From NCBI GenBank assembly GCA_030754585.1, contig JASMAB010000004.1, positions 1-47,216 on the forward strand: a stretch of 47,216 bases of DNA. The letters are read 5' to 3'. Made by a program: the position numbers and the translations under genes. The notes under the pieces were generated by a model. It saw only the letters and a program-made list of their open reading frames with translations. It was not told the DNA's origin and searched no databases. Position 1 is the stretch's first letter. Each line of letters begins with the position of its first letter. Source of the stretch: Nitrososphaerales archaeon (GTDB lineage: Archaea > Thermoproteota > Nitrososphaeria > Nitrososphaerales > JACPRH01). This document shows, one piece after another, positions 17,382-43,830 of the stretch.

Positions 17382-18428
17382 TTGATACATAGAAGTTCAT
17401 ACATATTATCTTTGGGATTAGTTGTTACCATATTAGGATTAATGGCTATAAGTTTTGGTCAAATAGATTCATCTTCCTTTATGTCTATGGACAAGCCTTC
17501 TAGTATTGCTTGGAGTGAAACTGGATTTATAGTTGGTTTAGGTGATGATGGTGCAAGGATCAACTTAGCGAATCCTCGAACAAAAACAGTTGAGCTCTTT
17601 GCAGGTGCTTTTAAAGGTGGAGAAGAGACTCATATAGCAGTCAGTCTTGGGATGACCTTTCCTTATGGAAACGTCTATGTGAATAAAGGAGATGCAATTT
17701 TTGAGCTCTCAGAAGATGGTCTATCAAATAGGAAATTTGTGGTTCCCTCTCCAGGAAGTAATATCGCTGGCCTTACCTTTGATATTGTGAAAACCTGGAG
17801 CTATAGGTTGATAGCAGTCACAGATGATGGCTCTGTTTGGGCGATTGATGAAACAGGTCAAGTTGAACACATTACAAACTTAGGTAGTAATGTGGGTCCA
17901 AGTGGCTTAATGATAGCTCCACCTGATTTTGGGGATTTCAGTAGCGACATTTTAGTATCATTAGCAAATGAAAATAAGATAGTGGGTATTTCAAATATTG
18001 ATCATAGTGTATCAGTTTTGCATGAGTTTCAGGGAGAAAAACCTGGGATATTACTACATAATTTTCAGCGCAGTACTCTCTATGTTTCAAACCATGATGG
18101 AGGAGAGATAGTAAAAATTGATCCGGAAGTCACAAAACCATATTGGGCACAAGTTTTGTTGGTCACTGAAGATGAACAAGGGGGATCACACAGCGTTAAA
18201 TTCATTAGGTCAACAAGATTAGCAGTAGAGATTTCTGAACTTGCATCTGGGGTTACGAACCCTGACTTTGCTGGAGCAGTATTTGTTGGTGATGCAGAAT
18301 GGGAAAGATCTCTCGAAGAACCAGAAGATGAAGTTCCGGACATAGATCCTCGGTTGATAATATATCCACTTCTCATAGTAGTAGTTATAGGTATAGTTGC
18401 TGTTATTTGGAGATTCCGTGGATTCTAG
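17382..18428 (+). CDS. Secreted, C-terminally membrane-anchored beta-propeller-like protein
   Basis: 348 aa; N-terminal signal/TM, SIAWSETGFIVGLGDDG and DGSVWAIDETG repeats, C-terminal TM IIYPLLIVVVIGIVAVIWRFRGF. Confidence 0.55.
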   Translation: MIHRSSYILSLGLVVTILGLMAISFGQIDSSSFMSMDKPSSIAWSETGFIVGLGDDGARINLANPRTKTVELFAGAFKGGEETHIAVSLGMTFPYGNVYVNKGDAIFELSEDGLSNRKFVVPSPGSNIAGLTFDIVKTWSYRLIAVTDDGSVWAIDETGQVEHITNLGSNVGPSGLMIAPPDFGDFSSDILVSLANENKIVGISNIDHSVSVLHEFQGEKPGILLHNFQRSTLYVSNHDGGEIVKIDPEVTKPYWAQVLLVTEDEQGGSHSVKFIRSTRLAVEISELASGVTNPDFAGAVFVGDAEWERSLEEPEDEVPDIDPRLIIYPLLIVVVIGIVAVIWRFRGF

Positions 18429-18580
18429 ATAATATTTCTGACTTAAAACTTTACATAATGATATTGAAAAATTGAATGTTTTGCATATAGGATATTTTCT
18501 ACAAGAAAAAATATGTTAAACTTTATTCGATATTAATACAAATATACATAAATTACTTGAAAGTAATTGGGTTATGGTAT

Positions 18581-19729
18581 ATGAAAACAATATACAATAT
18601 ACTGATTCTTGCATTAGTAGTATCGATTATGGGTGCTGGAACACTAGATATTGGTAGTGCTTCTGCTTTAACTGGTTGTTATCGTCCGACTGGATGGTAT
18701 GCATCTGAATTCATTTTAAATAAACCAAGTCTTAAATTTAATTTAGACCCAATAGGAGAAAGTGAAAATGTAACTGTTATAAGAGAATCAGTAATTTATA
18801 GATCACATTATAATGAGTCCTTAGCCGTTATTCTTACTCCATTTGATCTATTTGAAGAGAAGGGTCTAGATATTCGGTTGCAGATGCCAACGAGGAACAT
18901 TACAACAGGGACACAGTTTATTGTTCTTGAAACTGATGATATGGAAACAAGGCTTTTAGATCTAAATATGATGGGAGGAAGAGGTAAAGGTTGGGTATTG
19001 GATATTTCGTATATGCAATTGCTTCCAGAGCAACCGCCTACCCAGATTTCAAATTTGACTAAAGGTAACCTGAAAGTTACTTTAGTACCTCATATTAACG
19101 AAACACTTCCAGGTATTTACATTGCAATTTCAGCTGAAAATGCGACTGGTTTAAGCAATGAAAACATGACTGAACTTTCTAATATCTTCGATGGAATTGG
19201 TTACCCTATTAGCTTCAATATGTTGACAAGAGAGTTTGAGTCTAAAATAACCATAGAGGAAGAGCACGATCTTGAATCTACATTAGGGATATCCCCTGAT
19301 GATTTCGATTGGTTTGAAGCAATGAAAATAGAGTTAGAGTGGTTAAGAGATAATCGAGTTGTAACCGGACTGGCAGATGAGGATATTGAAGATATTGCCA
19401 CTATTGCGAAAGATACAGTTGGTGAACATAATCTCAGAGGTAGGTATTATAATGATAATTGGATCCAAGGTATAACTGAAGAGATGCTGGAAAATGAGGT
19501 CACTAAACTATATACTGGTGAACCGACCTGTGATGGATTCTCTGAAGAAATTCTTCCATCCTTTAACTTGCAGGATTTTAACACTGGTTTTCGTCCTTTA
19601 GAGATAATATTTGAATCTTCTATTCAAGGTCAAACAATAAGGATTGGTTTAATCGGTATTAGCATCCTGTTTGTAAGCGTATTTGTTTTGCGTTGGCGAA
19701 AACGTTTACGGAAAAGAAAAAGACGATAA
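18581..19729 (+). CDS. Secreted, membrane-anchored protein of unknown function
   Basis: ATG at 18581 gives MKTIYNILILALVVSIMGAG signal; C-terminal TM followed by RWRKRLRKRKRR. ORF track start is TTG at 18557. Confidence 0.55.
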   Translation: MKTIYNILILALVVSIMGAGTLDIGSASALTGCYRPTGWYASEFILNKPSLKFNLDPIGESENVTVIRESVIYRSHYNESLAVILTPFDLFEEKGLDIRLQMPTRNITTGTQFIVLETDDMETRLLDLNMMGGRGKGWVLDISYMQLLPEQPPTQISNLTKGNLKVTLVPHINETLPGIYIAISAENATGLSNENMTELSNIFDGIGYPISFNMLTREFESKITIEEEHDLESTLGISPDDFDWFEAMKIELEWLRDNRVVTGLADEDIEDIATIAKDTVGEHNLRGRYYNDNWIQGITEEMLENEVTKLYTGEPTCDGFSEEILPSFNLQDFNTGFRPLEIIFESSIQGQTIRIGLIGISILFVSVFVLRWRKRLRKRKRR

Positions 19730-19813
19730 CAATAATTCATGTAATATGTTATGTAAGTGATTTAGAGATTTCTCTGAAAAAGAAATTACACGCACTGAAT
19801 GGTACCTATTTTA

Positions 19814-20104
19814 TTAATCTAAATCTTCTTCTGAAACATAATCTCTTTCTCTTTCTGCCGGAGGTACATATCTGTAGCATCTAAAACCAATAAAAATTAG
19901 AGCGACACCAAAGCCTCCCATTCCATATCTCTGGAAATTGGTTTGGCCTCTTACTTCAGAAAATTCAACTGGTTGTCCAGGGATATTGAATTCAAATTTT
20001 GAGGGCTCTGAGATAAGCGCAAAAGCAATAGTCCCCACTCCAAGTATAGCAAGAACTATTCCTGCAGCTTTAAACATCGGTCTTTTTGAGGATGTTTTGG
20101 ACAT
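19814..20104 (-). CDS. Small two-TM membrane protein
   Basis: 96 aa, two hydrophobic helices, directly downstream of the ABC permease on the same strand. Confidence 0.5.
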   Translation of the reverse strand: MSKTSSKRPMFKAAGIVLAILGVGTIAFALISEPSKFEFNIPGQPVEFSEVRGQTNFQRYGMGGFGVALIFIGFRCYRYVPPAERERDYVSEEDLD

Positions 20105-20129
20105 TTTGTCTTATACGACAAGTGGTAGC

Positions 20130-20969
20130 CTATATATCTTTCTTAATGAATGTTACAAATGCGGTTATTGTTGGAGCAAGTATCCATACGGCCATTGATG
20201 TATATAGGAATGGAAGTATTCCTTCTGCACCAAAAATTTTCACCATTGCTATACCAAGAGGTCCTAATGTTGCAAGGTTAACAGCGAAATCTTCACCAAC
20301 CAACAACGCATATATTGTTATCTGCCTTACCAACTCAAGAGGATTTATTGCCACTATAGGTATCAAGTAGACAGGGTCAAAAGCTACAGTGACTACTAAA
20401 CTCAAGAATCCCATATCGATAAGTACAGCGAATAGGAACCAAAAGAATAGCGCAATACCCAACGCCATTGATCTATCCTTGCTAAAAGCAGATATCATTA
20501 AGGCCAAACCTAACATAGCTGCCGTTAATCCATATGCTATTACAAGGACAGAGAAATATTCCAATGTAGGTGCTTCCATAATTACTAAGGCTGCCACACC
20601 CATTCCAATAGAGATAGCTGCAGATACAGCGAAAAACATTCCAAAGAATTTTCCTACAAACACGTTAATTTTCGATATTGGTTGTGAAAGAAGCAGTTCA
20701 AGGGTATTTCGATCTCTCTCCCCTACTAGTGCTGCGGAACCAATTGGAAGCGCAATTAATGGTAAAAATGGATAAACAATTTCACTAGTTCCAGCAATGA
20801 GTGTTTGTATAGTGGGTGCCATTAAGCCTAAGGAATAGGCCACTACGAATGGAAGTCCTATGACGAGAAAGAATGTGATTACGGTGAATGCTATTAGCCA
20901 ACGGCTTCTAATAGAATCTGAAAATTCTTTCCTAATGATATAAATAACTGGTGGTAACATTTCAATCAC
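20130..20969 (-). CDS. ABC-2 type permease, NosY-like
   Basis: 279 aa; VGERDRNTLELLLSQPISKINVFVGKFFG motif typical of NosY-type ABC-2 permeases; overlaps the ATPase gene by 4 bp. Confidence 0.8.
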   Translation of the reverse strand: MIEMLPPVIYIIRKEFSDSIRSRWLIAFTVITFFLVIGLPFVVAYSLGLMAPTIQTLIAGTSEIVYPFLPLIALPIGSAALVGERDRNTLELLLSQPISKINVFVGKFFGMFFAVSAAISIGMGVAALVIMEAPTLEYFSVLVIAYGLTAAMLGLALMISAFSKDRSMALGIALFFWFLFAVLIDMGFLSLVVTVAFDPVYLIPIVAINPLELVRQITIYALLVGEDFAVNLATLGPLGIAMVKIFGAEGILPFLYTSMAVWILAPTITAFVTFIKKDI

Positions 20970-21928
20970 TTCTTCGTTACTTTCTCCGTAGTCGTTTTAA
21001 GGTCATCTGAAGTCATTTGCATAAATGCTTTCTCAAGGCTAGGCTCTTCAACTCTGAAGCTTTCTGGTGTAAATCCTTTATCGCTCAATCCCTTAAGTAT
21101 CGTGAATTTTTCCTCATGATTACACTCAACAACTATCTGTGCTTTATGTACCTCTGCCTCCTTGAAACCCAAATCTCGCACAACTTTAACCATAGCGTCG
21201 GGTTTATTTTCACCTGTATCAATAAAAAGATGATCTTTTAGTTCAGCATCTTTCATAAAGTCTTCAACACCTCCTGCTTGAACTACTCGTCCTTTATTAA
21301 CAACTAAAACATGCCCTTTAAACAACCTGATCTCATGAGCCTCTCTGAGCAAGTGTGTTGAAACTAGGACACATTTCCCTTTATCCAAGATCTCTCCCAG
21401 AAGTTGTCTGAACTCTAATTGTCCTTGGACATCAAGATTAGCAGTAGGCTCGTCAAGAATCAATATAGGCGGATCTGATAACTGAGATATTCCTAACATA
21501 AGCCTTTGCTTCATTCCTCCTGAGAGGGCTCCAGCTTTCCGGTCTCTGAACCTTGTGAGTCTAATCTCTTTTAGGCTTTCCTCGACACGGTTAGAGTTTA
21601 TTCCTTTCAAACCAGCGTAGAACTTTAGATTAGCCTCAACAGACATATCGTCATATGGTGAAGAATGTTGGGGTAAATACCCGACTTGGCCTCTTATCCA
21701 TTTTCCTCCTTTCCTTACATCATTTCCATCTACAGTAATAGATCCTTCAAAGTTTAGAAGCCCGAGCATACATCTGAAAAGTGTAGTCTTACCGGCACCA
21801 TTTGGACCTAAAACTGCGTGTATTTCTCCACGATCAGCTGTAAATGATGCGTCACGTACTGCTTTAAAGCGTCCATATTTCTTTGTAACATGATCCACCT
21901 TTATCAATTGGTCTGCCAAGATAGTCAT
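20966..21928 (-). CDS. ABC transporter ATPase, NosF-like
   Basis: 320 aa; GPNGAGKTTLFR, LSGGMKQRLMLG, LILDEPTANLD. Confidence 0.88.
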   Translation of the reverse strand: MTILADQLIKVDHVTKKYGRFKAVRDASFTADRGEIHAVLGPNGAGKTTLFRCMLGLLNFEGSITVDGNDVRKGGKWIRGQVGYLPQHSSPYDDMSVEANLKFYAGLKGINSNRVEESLKEIRLTRFRDRKAGALSGGMKQRLMLGISQLSDPPILILDEPTANLDVQGQLEFRQLLGEILDKGKCVLVSTHLLREAHEIRLFKGHVLVVNKGRVVQAGGVEDFMKDAELKDHLFIDTGENKPDAMVKVVRDLGFKEAEVHKAQIVVECNHEEKFTILKGLSDKGFTPESFRVEEPSLEKAFMQMTSDDLKTTTEKVTKK

Positions 21929-22842: not shown

Positions 22843-23184
22843 TTACCCTGCAGGTCCAGCTAAACATAAACCTGCCGGATAGTGACAGACATAGTCATTG
22901 CTACCACTAATATTACCACAAACAAGGCCTGAAGGACAGCCACTATCAAAAGCACAATTCTGACAGTCTTCTCCTGGATCAATTATGCCGTTACCACACG
23001 TAAGTTTTAGTTGAGCACACTCTGAAGCAGGTTGACCATCGGAACAAGCGTATTCAGGAGCGTTTGGTAACATTGATACCACTGTTGTACTATTTGTGTT
23101 ATTTAGTGCAAATACTGAAATACTTACTCCCATTATTAGGGCTGCGATAGTTACTCCAACAATTAAGAACTTTTTTTGGATCAT
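22843..23184 (-). CDS. Secreted small Cys-rich protein (CGNGIIDPGEDC type)
   Basis: 113 aa; signal/TM then CGNGIIDPGEDCQNCAFDSGCPSGLVCGN with regularly spaced Cys. Confidence 0.6.
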   Translation of the reverse strand: MIQKKFLIVGVTIAALIMGVSISVFALNNTNSTTVVSMLPNAPEYACSDGQPASECAQLKLTCGNGIIDPGEDCQNCAFDSGCPSGLVCGNISGSNDYVCHYPAGLCLAGPAG

Positions 23185-32609: not shown

Positions 32610-33068
32610 TTATGGTTTTACGATAACTACACCCCTTTCAACGGAGTGATCTACTAACTGGTTGATAGTTTCCCCACGGAAATCAACGTAGGTGTATGTT
32701 TCCTCGGGGCGTACATCTCTGAAAACGAATGTTCCAGCTTTTGTGGGTGTGAACTCTATGGAGGTAGATTCGAATGGAGCGATAGACTCGGTTTCAATAT
32801 TCAATTCAGGTATTGAGAATTGGTGCGATTCTATATCATCATTATTCACAAAAACGAGTGTAACAGGTACACCCACAGTGAATATGAGAGTATCAGGCTC
32901 CATGCTTCGCTGCTCATTTTGAAGCATTATTCCTCCTTCAACTGGCGGATTTGTTGTTATCAGCCGGACAATAACAGCTGTATTTGAGCCTCCAAAGAAG
33001 AAGTATCCTACACTTAAAGCCATAATTATAGTAACAACAGCTGCAATTATCTGTATTTTTTTATCCAA
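32610..33068 (-). CDS. Cupredoxin-fold protein, membrane anchored, incomplete copper ligand set
   Basis: 152 aa; N-terminal TM, FVNNDDIESHQFSIPEL, EFTPTKAGTFVFRD without the Cys ligand loop. Confidence 0.6.
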   Translation of the reverse strand: MDKKIQIIAAVVTIIMALSVGYFFFGGSNTAVIVRLITTNPPVEGGIMLQNEQRSMEPDTLIFTVGVPVTLVFVNNDDIESHQFSIPELNIETESIAPFESTSIEFTPTKAGTFVFRDVRPEETYTYVDFRGETINQLVDHSVERGVVIVKP

Positions 33069-33539: not shown

Positions 33540-34262
33540 CTACTCGCCTACAACTATTATTCCTGATTCGATGCAGGAAGGCGATAATGATTCTTCAAAC
33601 TCTTCTACTGCTTCTTCTAATATTATAGATAATTCCAAGACAGAGTCCATTGTTGATACGTCCTCCAATTCCTTTATTACTTCTATAATATCATCAGGTG
33701 CTACTACTTCATATTGTATCATCAATCCGCTAAGTTGAGTTACCACACTTTTTACTTCATCGATAGTTTTTGCCTCTATCAATTTTTCCGTTTCTCTTTC
33801 TAGGTTGAATGAGAGGTCTCTCCTCGATACTTCTTCTGGTGGAGCCTTTTCGCAACCTAATAATGATTCTGGAGTGTTGAATAAGAATTCTCCTACCTCA
33901 TCGAACTTAATGTTTATGGTTATCTGTTGATTAACAGGAGGTATTGGGTCGGTTAATATTTCAAGATCTGGAATTGAGAGTCTATGCTCGAATTCATCAT
34001 CCCCGTTTACTATTGTCAACTTTACATTGTCGCCTTTCTTTACATTGATTTCTTGTGGAATCCATGCTTCTTCACCTTCACTGACTTCTGATAGTGTCAG
34101 TGTAATTTCTTTGCTTGTGGTTTCTTGGTTTCCATTCGAGAAGTAAGTGAATCCTAAAATGGTGATAAGAATAGCGATAGATACAACAATAAGAGCGGTT
34201 GTTCTGGAATTCAATTCGTCAATTCCCCCTCTTTTGATATATATAAAAATATATTCATTCAT
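33540..34262 (-). CDS. Cupredoxin-like protein with long helical insertion before the last strand
   Basis: 240 aa; cupredoxin half EINVKKGDNVKLTIVNGDDEFEHRLSIPDL...FDEVGEFLFNTPESLLGC, then about 90 mostly helical residues, then SPSCIESGIIVVGE. Confidence 0.6.
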   Translation of the reverse strand: MNEYIFIYIKRGGIDELNSRTTALIVVSIAILITILGFTYFSNGNQETTSKEITLTLSEVSEGEEAWIPQEINVKKGDNVKLTIVNGDDEFEHRLSIPDLEILTDPIPPVNQQITINIKFDEVGEFLFNTPESLLGCEKAPPEEVSRRDLSFNLERETEKLIEAKTIDEVKSVVTQLSGLMIQYEVVAPDDIIEVIKELEDVSTMDSVLELSIILEEAVEEFEESLSPSCIESGIIVVGE

Positions 34263-38760: not shown

Positions 38761-39033
38761 ATGACTGTACACTTTTGTGATGCATGTTCAAGAATCTGTC
38801 AAGCAAATAAAATACAGCAAGTTCCTGTTGATTCACCTGAAGAACTTATTTTTTGGCCTCAAAGATGTGTAGATTGCTATGCATGTAAAATATTATGTCC
38901 TGAAGATGTTCTTGCCATAAAGAGAAGATTCATTCCAAAAATTATTGGTAACATAAAAGATGTTAAAATAAAAGATTCAATCGCCACCTGTGAGAAATAT
39001 GGTGATTCAATAGGGTCATATCAAAATATCTAG
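38761..39033 (+). CDS. Small ferredoxin-like 4Fe-4S protein
   Basis: 90 aa; CVDCYACKILCP (CxxCxxCxxxCP) plus N-terminal CDACSRIC. Confidence 0.7.
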   Translation: MTVHFCDACSRICQANKIQQVPVDSPEELIFWPQRCVDCYACKILCPEDVLAIKRRFIPKIIGNIKDVKIKDSIATCEKYGDSIGSYQNI

Positions 39034-39176: not shown

Positions 39177-39683
39177 TTAAGGAGCTGGAGCATAACGGCT
39201 AAGATCTGCTCCTTCTGGAATGGGTATATGACAGTCGAAGCATCGGCTTTGGAGGGCCTCTCTAGCAATGCCAAATTGAAACTTATGTTCCAAATGGCAA
39301 TTTGTACATCTTACTCCAATATGAGGACCTTCCTGATGGGCGTCAACCTCTTGTAAATACGAAGCCCAATCCCAGTTAAATTTAGTGCTGGAACCGTTAT
39401 CACGACGATAGTCATCCTCATGACAAGTCAGGCAATCTTTATCTTTAATAGGACTGGAATATTGATGACAGTTCATACAAGTGACGTCTCCATTACTGTG
39501 TGATGAATTTTTGTATCCTTCTACATATGGAACTTCGCCATGACAATTGGCACAGGTTTCTGAATCTGAACTATAAGCTATGCCCCCCACAGATAACGAT
39601 GAAGCAATTGAAATTGTGATTAAAGCAATAATAACTACTAAAGAGATAATGCCAGCTATCTGCAAAATGTTACCGTTTTTCAA
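39177..39683 (-). CDS. Membrane-anchored pentaheme c-type cytochrome (NapC/NirT-like)
   Basis: Five CxxCH motifs (CANCH, CMNCH, CLTCH, CTNCH, CFDCH); N-terminal TM. TTG at 39683 gives LKNGNILQIAGIISLVVIIALI; the longer listed start at 39848 overlaps the divergent gene. Confidence 0.85.
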   Translation of the reverse strand: MKNGNILQIAGIISLVVIIALITISIASSLSVGGIAYSSDSETCANCHGEVPYVEGYKNSSHSNGDVTCMNCHQYSSPIKDKDCLTCHEDDYRRDNGSSTKFNWDWASYLQEVDAHQEGPHIGVRCTNCHLEHKFQFGIAREALQSRCFDCHIPIPEGADLSRYAPAP

Positions 39684-39787
39684 CCCAATACCTCTACTAT
39701 AATATTGAGATTTGTATATATTAAAGATATATGTCTTTCTTAGAAATAATAAAAGAGTTATAACAGGTAATTCTTTGATTAAAGATA

Positions 39788-40606
39788 ATGTTGCACGATA
39801 TACTTCAAATTTCAGGAGTTCCGTTTCGTATTGATGATTTTCTTGCATTATCTATAATTTTCGCTGCAATATTTGGTATTGTTATTCACTTCATAAGAGA
39901 GATAGTGTTTGGAAGACGAGGGAAACGGTGGGATATGAAATTTGATGAGGTTGAAAGGTATAGTAAGGTACAGATTGTTGTTCATTGGCTATTTCTAATA
40001 TTTCTATTCGCTCTTCTTATAACAGGCATAATTATCTTCAAAATTGATTATTTCAATACAGTATATCCTCCAATAGGAGAAATGGGTCTCAGAATGTTAG
40101 TTGCTTATCATTGGTATTTTTCAATCGCATTATTGGATTTAGCAATTTTTCACATTATATATGATTCAATTATCATACGCAAATATGATAATTTTTGGTT
40201 TACTCGAGTTGATATTCATAATTTAAAGACGATTGTACGAAACTTCTTTGGTGTGTCACAGGAATATCCAAGAATACAAAAGCTTCACCCTATGCAAAAG
40301 ATCTTTCATTTTGGTTTGGCTATCACAGTCTTTCTGTTAGGGTTTACAGGGCTGACGATATGGGAACCATTTCTTATCTTTACCCGCAATATAGGATTAG
40401 GACCTATAGAAAGCTGGTTATATATCCAAAACAGCAGATATCTGCATGATGTATTCACATTTGTCCTTATATCTTTGATGATTGGGCATTTCTACTTCAG
40501 CGTATTAATACCTACCAACTGGAAAGTCTTCAGAGGAATGACTCACGGAAAACTAGACTTAAAGTCCATTGAGGAAAATAAAAAAGATAATTCAAAAAAG
40601 AAGTAA
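39788..40606 (+). CDS. Membrane cytochrome b (FdhC / b-type quinol-cytochrome family)
   Basis: 272 aa; multiple TM segments with His (VQIVVHWLFLI, MLVAYHWYF, IFHFGLAITVFLLGFTGL, YLHDVFTFVLISLMIGHFYF). Confidence 0.8.
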   Translation: MLHDILQISGVPFRIDDFLALSIIFAAIFGIVIHFIREIVFGRRGKRWDMKFDEVERYSKVQIVVHWLFLIFLFALLITGIIIFKIDYFNTVYPPIGEMGLRMLVAYHWYFSIALLDLAIFHIIYDSIIIRKYDNFWFTRVDIHNLKTIVRNFFGVSQEYPRIQKLHPMQKIFHFGLAITVFLLGFTGLTIWEPFLIFTRNIGLGPIESWLYIQNSRYLHDVFTFVLISLMIGHFYFSVLIPTNWKVFRGMTHGKLDLKSIEENKKDNSKKK

Positions 40607-40843
40607 TTTCTCAACCCAGAATATATAACAAAAAAATGTTTTTGGGAAAATGAAGATATTAACCTCAAAAATAATTGGAATAATCTGATATCTATGCATG
40701 CAATACTAAACGTTATTATGCATAATTAATTTATAGAGAAAAGGGATTTCTATTTGTTCCCTTGATCTAGAAATTAAGAGTAAAATTGCAACTGCGGCTA
40801 GTAAAGAATATCTATATATCCTATTCATTACCACATTTAATAG

Positions 40844-41500
40844 ATGCATAAAAACGCTGTAATTTTGGCAGTTATTGTTATTTTTATAGGGTTGAACATA
40901 TCTATAGGATACATAGCTTTTGCGGCCGAGCCAGATTACATTATCTCTATGGTGCCCAACGTTAACTCTGTTTATCGAGGAAATTCCCTTTCATATGATT
41001 TAACTCTCACTTCCATAAGGGATTTTGAGTCCAAGATAGATGTAAAAGTTAATGATGTACCTGAAGGCGTTGATGTGGTTGTTGAAAGTAAAGGTGCCAT
41101 GCTTTCAAGTGAAGAGGATCTAATTTTTAAGGTAAATGTAAAAGTAGATTCAGAAGCTCCTGCGGGCCTTTATGATATTGTAATTGAAGCAAATGGCAAC
41201 GGACTAGTTCGTTCTGCTACATCGCAGTTAAACATTATCGGTACAGACCAAATAATAGTAGTTATAGAGGATTTCTGGTATTTTCCTAACAATTTGACAA
41301 TTAGGGCTGGTAGTGAGGTGATATGGGTCAACAAGGATTTTGCTGCACACACTGCTACAGCTAATAATGGTGAGTTTGATACCAAATTACTCCAGCAAAA
41401 TCAAGTTTCTTTGGCGATAGTTTTTGATAAGGTTGGGATATATCCTTGGTTTTGTGTTCCTCATCCTCAAATGGTAGGAGCAGTAAAGGTTGTAGAATAA
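40844..41500 (+). CDS. Secreted type I blue-copper protein with N-terminal Ig-like domain
   Basis: 218 aa; AAHTATANNGEFDT and WFCVPHPQM give a His/Cys/His/Met ligand set. Confidence 0.85.
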   Translation: MHKNAVILAVIVIFIGLNISIGYIAFAAEPDYIISMVPNVNSVYRGNSLSYDLTLTSIRDFESKIDVKVNDVPEGVDVVVESKGAMLSSEEDLIFKVNVKVDSEAPAGLYDIVIEANGNGLVRSATSQLNIIGTDQIIVVIEDFWYFPNNLTIRAGSEVIWVNKDFAAHTATANNGEFDTKLLQQNQVSLAIVFDKVGIYPWFCVPHPQMVGAVKVVE

Positions 41501-41513
41501 TCATTCTGTTTCT

Positions 41514-41972
41514 TTATCCTTTTTCTTCAACAACAACATATGCTCTCATATCTTCGTGTCCTATACCACAATAAAAGATGCAATAAAACTCGAATTTCCC
41601 AACTTTATCAGCTGTAAATTCAATAGTTTCAGTTTGATTAGGTGAAACATTTGATGTAATATTCCATGCTTCTAAGTAAAATCCATGTGGAACATCTATG
41701 CTAGTTAAGTGGATTATCACATTATCACCTTCAAGAACTCTTATTTCTGTAGGATAATATTCCCACATTAAAGCTGTAACATAGAAAACTTTTGTATCTT
41801 CTTCTCCAAGAACTGGAAATCTAGATGTCTCATTCCAATATACAACTCCATATACAGCTAACATTATTATGATTAATATGAATATGCTCATGAAACGTTC
41901 GACCCAGCTTTTCTTAACTTTAGTCTGCTTTCCCAATCTAATCACTTTAGATATAGAACCATACATACACAA
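41514..41972 (-). CDS. CuA-domain (Cox2/NosZ-C-like) membrane protein
   Basis: 152 aa; TM anchor, VPHGFYLE and CIFYCGIGHEDM = C-x3-C-x3-H-x2-M. Confidence 0.85.
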   Translation of the reverse strand: MCMYGSISKVIRLGKQTKVKKSWVERFMSIFILIIIMLAVYGVVYWNETSRFPVLGEEDTKVFYVTALMWEYYPTEIRVLEGDNVIIHLTSIDVPHGFYLEAWNITSNVSPNQTETIEFTADKVGKFEFYCIFYCGIGHEDMRAYVVVEEKG

Positions 41973-43356
41973 TTGCTATAGCTGTTGTTAGTATTGCAAA
42001 AGGAATTAATGCTCTCACTGCTTGTTTCCTATTAGGATATATTGCAATCAATGAATTATATCCTACTTTCAGAGATAACAAGACACCTGATAATGCAAAA
42101 GCTACTTCTGCGATCGGGATAGGTAATGCGATCGGCATCCAAGGAAGATGTGTTGTTCCCAACAGATTCCAACCTGCACCAAATGGATCTGAAAGAACAA
42201 CCGGAATGTATGACCATTCTATCATAAGGAGTGAAAAGTTGAAACCTACCCAAAGCATCAGTCCTAATGGGATATAGGCATAAGCATAGTTTACAAAAAG
42301 TCTCTTTGTCGAGATGTCTTTAGTCCCTGATAATAGTTTGGACCCCATTGAAGCTAATAAATGTAATCCAGGTATAATTCCCAGCACAATATCAATAATT
42401 AAGATTATGTAAAAAAAGTGTTGAACCATACCAACAGAATTAGTATAGAGCAGAAGGTCTCCCCAGCTTTTTATCCATGCCCAGGGGCCAAATAAAACGG
42501 CTGTATATACCAATGGAAATGCTAGTAAAATTAGGGCTCTCCATGCCTCATCTGGCTTCCTTCGCATAGATTCTGATTTTAATTCTGCCCCAAAAGGTCT
42601 GGCATTAAGAGCTATATTGTCGCGTGGGCAAGTCTTAAAACATTCCGTACAAAGGCCGCAGTCAATGTTTGAGACCATATTTTGTGGGAATTCGAACCAA
42701 GGACACCCATATCCATTCTCACTTCCAGAATAACATTCTTTTTCACATCCACCCTCTGAAGTTGGTGTAAGACAAATATTCCTATCTTTCACCCTAACTT
42801 CAATAGGAGAGTAAGCTGAATATAACCCAATGAAGAGACCAGGTGGACATAAATAACGACAGAAACTTCTTCGAGGAAAGAGAATGAAGGTCACGGTTGC
42901 ACCTGTGATCAGCATAATTACCGCTATTGCTGTTACGAATGGTTGAGTTACTAGTACTACCATCCAAATCCCGAAGAAGATAAAGATAAAAATCTGGAGC
43001 CAAACATTTTGTAATATCTTTGGCCATCTTAAATTCATAAGTTTGGAGCTTCCAAATCTTTTCCATAGCTTTCTCTGAATCAGCTCTCCAGGCCAGACTA
43101 TTGGACATAAGAAACACCAACTTCGTCCAAGAAATGGTACTAAGAGTAGAGCAAGCAGAACAGACCAGAGTATCCAAGTGAATACTACCGAGAAGTTTTT
43201 GGCTCCTGAGCTTATTCCGATTATTCCAGTAACTGCTACGAATATGAAGGGAGCAAAGGCCAAAAGTGTTGCAATGGGTTGAAGATTTCTGCTAAGAATA
43301 ATGCGTTTGAGTAACTTATTCTTTAGGAGATTACGTCTCTTATATGGTTGCTCCAT
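41947..43356 (-). CDS. NosR/NapH-like membrane polyferredoxin
   Basis: 469 aa; CFLCP, CRYLCPPG, CGLCTECFKTCP and multiple TM segments. Confidence 0.85.
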   Translation of the reverse strand: MEQPYKRRNLLKNKLLKRIILSRNLQPIATLLAFAPFIFVAVTGIIGISSGAKNFSVVFTWILWSVLLALLLVPFLGRSWCFLCPIVWPGELIQRKLWKRFGSSKLMNLRWPKILQNVWLQIFIFIFFGIWMVVLVTQPFVTAIAVIMLITGATVTFILFPRRSFCRYLCPPGLFIGLYSAYSPIEVRVKDRNICLTPTSEGGCEKECYSGSENGYGCPWFEFPQNMVSNIDCGLCTECFKTCPRDNIALNARPFGAELKSESMRRKPDEAWRALILLAFPLVYTAVLFGPWAWIKSWGDLLLYTNSVGMVQHFFYIILIIDIVLGIIPGLHLLASMGSKLLSGTKDISTKRLFVNYAYAYIPLGLMLWVGFNFSLLMIEWSYIPVVLSDPFGAGWNLLGTTHLPWMPIALPIPIAEVAFALSGVLLSLKVGYNSLIAIYPNRKQAVRALIPFAILTTAIAIVYVWFYI

Positions 43357-43830
43357 CTAATCCTCTTTCCTCATCCAAACATATGCAATGAATGAAACAG
43401 ATAACCCTGAAATAACAAAAAAGCTTCCAATAAATCGGAGGTTAGGCTGGACCTCCAGTTGAGCCATCATGAATGGATGTAAAGACCCACATATCGTAGA
43501 ACAGTGTATCCTAAACATCCCCATTCTATCAGCCACAAATGATACAGTTTCAGGTGAACCAGGGGTTATGAAATCCTGTCTCACTTCGTAATCCTCTATA
43601 TAAAATCCATGAATTGCATCTACAGACTCTATTGTGATAACTACAATATCCCCTTGATTCACAACTAATCTCGCAGGTTCAAACCCGAATCTAAACGCTT
43701 TCAAGGTAAATTGCTTTACATAACTATCCTGCTGTTGAGCTGCAGCGAGACCCATACCCACTGTTCCCACTGCAATTCCAATTACAATCAATACTAGTAA
43801 CATTTTATGCCGATTCAATAGATCTATCAA
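43357..43830 (-). CDS. CuA-domain (Cox2-like) membrane protein, second copy
   Basis: 157 aa; signal/TM, IHGFYIED, CSTICGSLHPFM = C-x3-C-x3-H-x2-M, C-terminal TM. Confidence 0.85.
   Translation of the reverse strand: MIDLLNRHKMLLVLIVIGIAVGTVGMGLAAAQQQDSYVKQFTLKAFRFGFEPARLVVNQGDIVVITIESVDAIHGFYIEDYEVRQDFITPGSPETVSFVADRMGMFRIHCSTICGSLHPFMMAQLEVQPNLRFIGSFFVISGLSVSFIAYVWMRKED

Follow-up and report, generated by a model that had tools for sequence, protein, structure and literature searches.

CuA centers are classically found in two kinds of enzyme, the oxidases and the nitrous oxide reductase NosZ. Among described membrane polyferredoxins, NosR is linked to nosZ and carries a periplasmic domain that binds flavin mononucleotide (FMN), NapH acts with NapG as the menaquinol dehydrogenase of the periplasmic nitrate reductase, and CcoG/RdxA is a cupric reductase. 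Further, a blue copper protein and a NapH/MauN-family protein come together in the amicyanin/MauN system of methylamine oxidation. Here, we describe a trio of genes (or module) encoding two CuA proteins and a polyferredoxin in a 47,216-nucleotide stretch of DNA from a Nitrososphaerales archaeon. This stretch (the window) corresponds to contig C44 in the metagenome assembly of an archaeon (G000; 696 kb, 62% complete). We propose that the trio is probably a modular transmembrane electron relay, which replaces NosR and passes electrons from the membrane to exchangeable extracytoplasmic partners. It is the operon evidence from other phyla that makes a relay to extracytoplasmic enzymes the best account of these genes.

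The genes for CuA-2 (43357-43830), the polyferredoxin (41947-43356) and CuA-1 (41514-41972) follow one another on the minus strand and form one tight operon, 43830-41514, in which 0 nucleotides separate the first two and the open frames of the last two overlap by 26 nucleotides. A first-pass annotation of the window had called this operon as part of a cluster of six genes; the operon is borne out, and profile searches agree with all six assignments. CuA-2 has an N-terminal membrane anchor, a CuA domain (CSTICGSLHPFM) and a C-terminal transmembrane helix, and it matches the COX2 profile (6.4e-10) as well as the NosZ C-terminal and CoxB CuA models. CuA-1 has a single N-terminal transmembrane anchor followed by a CuA domain (CIFYCGIGHEDM) that matches the NosZ C-terminal CuA model (2.6e-19); inspection of start codons leaves its start at TTG 41972, ATG 41966 or later. 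In a six-frame translation of the window, the motif C-x3-C-x3-H-x2-M occurs only twice, once in each of these proteins.

The annotation had named both as CuA proteins, and comparison with solved structures upholds this. The best match of CuA-1 is the CuA domain of Thermus thermophilus ba3 oxidase (2lln, E 4e-17), and CuA-2 matches CuA domains of cytochrome c oxidase subunit 2 (6ptt, E 1e-12; 2lln, 2e-12). In alignments with 2lln, 2cua and 6ptt, the His, both Cys, the His and the Met ligands are all in place in CuA-1 and CuA-2, and the ligands are retained in the CuA proteins of relatives. Both proteins nevertheless fall well short of the cut-offs for the Cox2 and NosZ models (CoxB, about 49 bits vs. 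147.7), their match to the NosZ model is limited to its last ~95 of 578 positions, and no NosZ beta-propeller/CuZ domain was found before the CuA domain. We thus reject the idea that they are fragments of Cox2 or NosZ: the ligands are intact, yet there is no oxidase or propeller part. A different situation was observed in G020 (L060 14883-15296), in which the Cys ligands of the second CuA protein are gone and the polyferredoxin has a fused N-terminal part without a CuA motif; the module is retained there, but CuA is lost.

The 469-residue polyferredoxin has about nine transmembrane segments, arranged as a NapH/NosR-like core and a C-terminal transmembrane region with a conserved LSDPFGxGWNLxGT loop. 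Its core carries the motifs CxxCP, CxxxCP, C-x8-C-x3-C-x9-CP and CxxCxxCxxxCP; of the two canonical CxxCxxCxxxCP motifs of NapH, it thus has one in canonical and one in altered form. The match to the curated NapH/MauN model is weak, at 34.1 bits against a cut-off of 213. Fer4_5 is the sole domain detected, and the FMN-binding N-terminal domain that typifies NosR was not found. The trio would work in a NosR- or NapH-like way but, by the features tested, is a member of neither family. The closest named polyferredoxins among the matches listed are those of Nitrososphaerota archaeon XS84Bin3 (76%) and Thaumarchaeota archaeon NC_groundwater_674 (70%), and a search of PHROGs gave no matches.

Conservation in this protein centers on its cysteines, 11 of which are invariant in all 46 aligned relatives. 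The first cluster motif reads C-x2-H-...-C-x9-CP in 36 of the 46 rows; a Cys replaces the His in six others and lies one position on in one. In the remaining three rows, which belong to the window family, the His is absent and a Cys has been inserted (GGC), a pattern that speaks for selection on a functional cluster. A candidate fourth ligand, His or Cys, is therefore present in 46/46 polyferredoxins. A single His column reaches conservation in half or more of the rows, that of this putative Fe-S ligand, and no His of a transmembrane segment is conserved across the family; a heme b in the polyferredoxin was rejected on that basis. The positive-inside pattern predicts a cytoplasmic Fe-S domain, with the LSDPFGxGWNLxGT loop outside. 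Although the AlphaFold2 model has good scores (pLDDT 88, pTM 0.89), a Foldseek search of the PDB with it returned no fold match. In one locus (L063 3548-5752), the N-terminal half of a polyferredoxin is in frame with an unrelated protein of multiple transmembrane segments; this could be a misassembly or a true fusion.

We scanned 85,462 species genomes and analyzed the best 80 loci, a set that is biased to Chloroflexota and is not a census. The trio was found in at least about ten bacterial and archaeal phyla. Most of the best 80 loci belong to Chloroflexota, and others come from Planctomycetota, Desulfobacterota, Bacteroidota, Rokubacteria, Geothermarchaeota and further phyla. A cultured bacterium, Desulfoluna limicola, is among the named bearers. 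Gene order is conserved across phyla, and the trio is retained in most of the loci with intact open reading frames. In many bacteria, the downstream CuA protein is fused to a cytochrome c with one or two c-type heme motifs. In L116, L119, L129, L132 and L148 (Planctomycetota, Desulfobacterota, Bacteroidota), the downstream CuA motif overlaps a heme motif (CTSMCGDCHFYM), so that a heme might stand in place of the CuA site or alongside it.

The gene neighborhoods connect the trio to catalytic enzymes. In a Chloroflexota genome and an unclassified bacterium, the trio is followed on the same strand by nosZ-D-F-Y (L083) or nosZ-D-F (L141), and in Geothermarchaeum (L108) it is divergent to a complete nosZ-L-D-F-Y cluster. 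Thus, nosZ lies within the 16-kb flank in three of the best 80 loci, whereas a rough reckoning, which takes about one in four module genomes to have NosZ and a genome size of 5 Mb, gives fewer than 0.1 by chance. In Hakubella (L144), NarG/H-like subunits, a chaperone and a heme b subunit run into the trio on one strand; the enzyme is a Nar-like molybdoenzyme of the type II dimethyl sulfoxide reductase family, and the same family adjoins the trio in the archaeal loci L061 (a fused copy in G004) and L145. In the polyferredoxin tree, L108 (with NosZ) and L145 (with the molybdoenzyme) are sister sequences that have different enzymes, and therefore a partner swap has taken place. The first-pass annotation had suggested an undescribed conduit with no catalytic subunit. 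The cluster indeed has none, in a genome that is just 62% complete, but the trio is neither peculiar to this organism nor always free of a partner, given its place inside nosZ and molybdoenzyme operons elsewhere.

How might such a relay work? The polyferredoxin would take up electrons at the membrane, in the manner of NapH or of the membrane part of NosR; by analogy with these proteins, the donor would most likely be quinol. Electrons would then pass to the two CuA proteins, anchored in the membrane at its outer face, and, from these, to an extracytoplasmic redox partner. The partner would be exchangeable; other lineages would use NosZ or a type II molybdenum reductase. In the window archaeon, it would be unlinked to the trio, and the amicyanin-like protein encoded nearby is probably the soluble carrier that connects the two. 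Candidates for the partner there are a pyrroloquinoline quinone (PQQ) dehydrogenase, such as neighbors the second copy of the cluster, or an oxidase. We infer the direction of flow and the loading with copper and Fe-S clusters, and likewise the roles of the amicyanin-like, cytochrome b and pentaheme proteins.

These last three proteins complete the six-gene cluster. Convergent with the trio is the gene for a secreted, amicyanin-like type 1 copper protein (40844-41500, plus strand; Copper-bind, 1.2e-6; amicyanin model, 2.5e-8). Its His, Cys, His and Met ligands are present (CVPHPQM and an upstream His), and its score of 34.2 bits is below the cut-off of 110.2 for the curated amicyanin model. 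Next to it are two divergently oriented genes. One encodes a membrane cytochrome b561/FdnI-like protein (39788-40606, plus strand; Ni_hydr_CYTB, 1.7e-18) with conserved His in its transmembrane segments. The other encodes a membrane-anchored, NrfH/NapC-like pentaheme cytochrome c (39177-39683, minus strand; NrfH model, 9.9e-10). The five hemes of the earlier annotation were confirmed by a count of five CxxCH motifs; the protein has an anchor and matches the family, but with five hemes where NrfH has four, and its score against the curated NrfH model is 38.6 bits (cut-off 134.2). The open frame of this gene reaches 39848 and so overlaps the cytochrome b gene. A start near TTG 39683, giving about 168 residues, is suggested by the paralog on contig C59 and appears likelier, and the overlap is therefore not required. 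A small ferredoxin-like protein of 90 residues with Cys motifs, whose family score is about at the cut-off, is encoded near the pentaheme gene (38761-39033, plus strand). A chance origin of the cluster was rejected on the PDB and profile E-values and on synteny.

The genome of the window organism carries further copies. Contig C59 has a second full cluster, with a polyferredoxin 85% identical to the first and a pentaheme paralog, and C60 has a third, diverged copy in which a CuA domain is fused to the polyferredoxin. The order DsbA-like gene, CuA-2, polyferredoxin, CuA-1, amicyanin, cytochrome b561 is kept in C59 and in the related genomes G002 and G004, at whose module loci the pentaheme cytochrome was not found. 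G003 keeps the trio and the amicyanin gene, with CuA-2 cut by the contig end. Thus, amicyanin accompanies the trio in three genera of the family and cytochrome b561 in two. Beyond the DsbA-like gene lies a PQQ dehydrogenase in C59; in G002 and G004, this position is held by an AFOR-type enzyme, accompanied by Fe-S and cytochrome b subunits. This latter group (L056 4972-8494, L057 13003-16490) comprises an AFOR-family enzyme, a Tat-like Fe-S protein and a cytochrome b561, and resembles the E. coli YdhV group; it adjoins the module in both genomes, whereas C59 lacks the AFOR gene and has the PQQ dehydrogenase in its place.

In a sample of the class, the polyferredoxin had a match at 1e-30 in 10/300 genomes (our own included) and 9/70 genera. 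A large family with complete genomes of 1.5-1.8 Mb (f9) had no match at this threshold. We take its members to be ammonia oxidizers, and infer that the window organism is not one.

Is the trio simply an accessory to Cox2 or NosZ? The first-pass annotation had held that a nosZ or cox1 gene of matching phylogeny elsewhere in the genome, or the same cluster beside a known oxidase in relatives, would make it an ordinary accessory operon. This refuting case applies by half: neither gene was found in our own genome (62% complete), and catalytic linkage occurs only outside the family. Cox1 was not found in G001 or G003 either, and full-length NosZ was not found in any of five family genomes. In G002 and G004, Cox1 is present on a different contig from the trio, with a CuA protein of its own adjoining. 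Among 22 other module genomes, two of which (L083 and L108) were chosen with nosZ already known, 18 have Cox1, seven have NosZ and four lack both Cox1 and full NosZ; these four belong to other phyla, and one is a single chromosome record of 2.69 Mb. Because Cox1 and NosZ are absent in several trio-bearing genomes and Cox1 is on other contigs in G002 and G004, the trio is not simply an accessory to either. The incompleteness of our own genome and the frequency of Cox1 among trio-bearing genomes would still accommodate a trio that serves an ordinary heme-copper oxidase or NosZ whose gene lies in the missing 38%; the case of G003, in which an assembly 88% complete contains the trio but neither Cox1 nor full NosZ, adds to the reasons for regarding this as improbable. 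A bd oxidase is found within the family only in G002 (none in our own genome, 62% complete), and no multicopper oxidase partner was found in G000, G001 or G003. A bc-type cytochrome b is present in G002 and G004, with a fragment in G003; as these genomes have it besides the trio, we do not favor the trio as a substitute for the bc complex.

The main rival to an electron relay is a device for copper reduction or maturation. The polyferredoxin, like CcoG/RdxA, would send electrons outward and so reduce Cu(II) or the CuA cysteines, and the CuA proteins would be copper chaperones or targets in the loading of oxidases or blue copper proteins. This role keeps a claim because of the DsbA-like thioredoxin gene, which flanks CuA-2 in C59 (a homolog does so in G002 and G004), and because Chloroflexota copies lie near genes for a Cu P-type ATPase, HMA, cupredoxin and PCYCGC proteins. 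NosY-like ABC genes near the G003 module also fit. We nonetheless consider it unlikely: the polyferredoxin has no match to the curated CcoG model at E up to 0.01, CuA is fused to cytochrome c in many bacteria, the Nar-like molybdoenzyme operon with the trio contains no copper client, and the trio is present in genomes without Cox1 or NosZ. Most of the Chloroflexota loci have a PCYCGC protein, joined often by DUF1573 and sometimes by a Cu-ATPase. In L081 (5704-13637), genes for a PCYCGC lipoprotein, CuA, DUF1573, the polyferredoxin, a CuA-cytochrome c, a Cu-ATPase and a cupredoxin are consecutive, and operons of this copper-linked type occur in many Anaerolineae.

The trio could also run the other way in the window family, as an entry rather than an exit, with electrons passing from extracytoplasmic PQQ dehydrogenases to the amicyanin-like protein and CuA and on to an oxidase or the membrane chain. 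PQQ-type dehydrogenases are numerous in the family (59 matches in G002, 56 in G004, five in G000); searches of three further module-carrying genomes of the order found none. One adjoins the second copy on C59, with the DsbA-like gene between, and blue copper proteins have been proposed as acceptors for PQQ dehydrogenases in heterotrophic marine Thaumarchaeota (PMC7300363). However, the adjacency is confined to C59, the place being held by the AFOR-type enzyme in G002 and G004. Further, for electrons to move from CuA potentials to a polyferredoxin of low potential would be uphill, and we find a reversed relay doubtful. The outward relay that we favor has evidence against it as well: G001, which is of the same genus and 88% complete, has no trio; no terminal reductase is linked to the window clade of the trio in the window family; this clade is on a long branch (1.56) in the polyferredoxin tree, and its role may therefore have shifted; and most of the listed Chloroflexota copies are near copper-handling or unknown genes, not reductases.

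Elsewhere in the window, the first-pass annotation had reported two NosFY-like ATP-binding cassette (ABC) pairs. They are ABC pairs, but the NosFY label is loose, since the permeases belong to the broad family PF12679 and no gene resembling nosD turned up anywhere in the window. One ABC-2 permease and ATPase pair (20130-21928, minus strand; PF12679, PF00005) has a possible link to the cluster; in G003, its homologs (72% and 69%) are close to the amicyanin gene of the module (L058). The region 17382-21928 comprises this pair and a 348-residue anchored protein of no Pfam family, and homologs of all of these adjoin the G003 module (L058 2855-5809). Two cupredoxin-fold proteins (32610-33068 and 33540-34262, minus strand), beside a sugar-type ABC transporter, have zero and two Cys and thus no ordinary type 1 copper site. 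A short, Cys-rich secreted protein (22843-23184, minus strand) has a homolog (34%) near a NapH-like protein in G039 (L068 9342-9716).

The supply of electrons to NosZ is unsettled in many lineages that lack NosR. The trio is a concrete, testable candidate for this donor because it is found inside nosZ operons in the Chloroflexota genome and the unclassified bacterium and, in Geothermarchaeum, lies opposite nosZ. It probably feeds enzymes outside the cell, such as the nitrous oxide reductase of other lineages, which breaks down this greenhouse gas. We see it as an evenly balanced question whether the trio defines an undescribed relay family of at least about ten phyla that replaces donors of the NosR/NapC type and swaps partners (NosZ, Nar-like molybdoenzymes and perhaps PQQ dehydrogenases), in some genomes without a cytochrome oxidase or NosZ. 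If it does, CuA is used beyond its two classical enzymes. The trio would also offer a lead on how extracytoplasmic oxidations are wired into respiration in the PQQ-rich, non-ammonia-oxidizing relatives of ammonia-oxidizing archaea. No published account of the trio was found in the literature searched, a search that most subscription journals lay outside. Scattered NapH homologs in ANME archaea have been discussed, with cupredoxins unmentioned (PMC9012536).

Each known system shares a part of this arrangement. The CuA domains of ba3 oxidase subunit II and of NosZ have all of the CuA ligands in common with the trio and are the closest solved structures, but the CuA proteins of the trio are stand-alone and anchored, with no Cox1 or NosZ body. 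PmoD/AmoD is another small protein that has a CuA site and is not part of an oxidase; its site arises from a homodimer with another ligand set, and no polyferredoxin is noted for it (PMC6189053). With amicyanin/MauN, the cluster shares the pairing of a blue copper protein with a NapH/MauN-family protein, but no methylamine dehydrogenase was seen here, and the score is far below the amicyanin cut-off. CcoG/RdxA has a similar link to copper biology; the trio polyferredoxin, which its model does not match, is instead tied to CuA proteins and, elsewhere, to NosZ or a molybdoenzyme. NapH, the best curated match, shares the Fe-S domain and the membrane Cys-Pro motifs; in the trio, one motif is C-x2-H-...-C-x9-CP rather than CxxCxxCxxxCP, and CuA proteins replace NapG. 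NosR is also a membrane polyferredoxin with such motifs; its linkage to nosZ is absent in the window family and present in L083, L108 and L141. Whereas NosR has its FMN-binding domain, the trio adds two CuA proteins and a C-terminal transmembrane region, and in those three loci it fills the place beside nosZ-D-F in which NosR would be expected.

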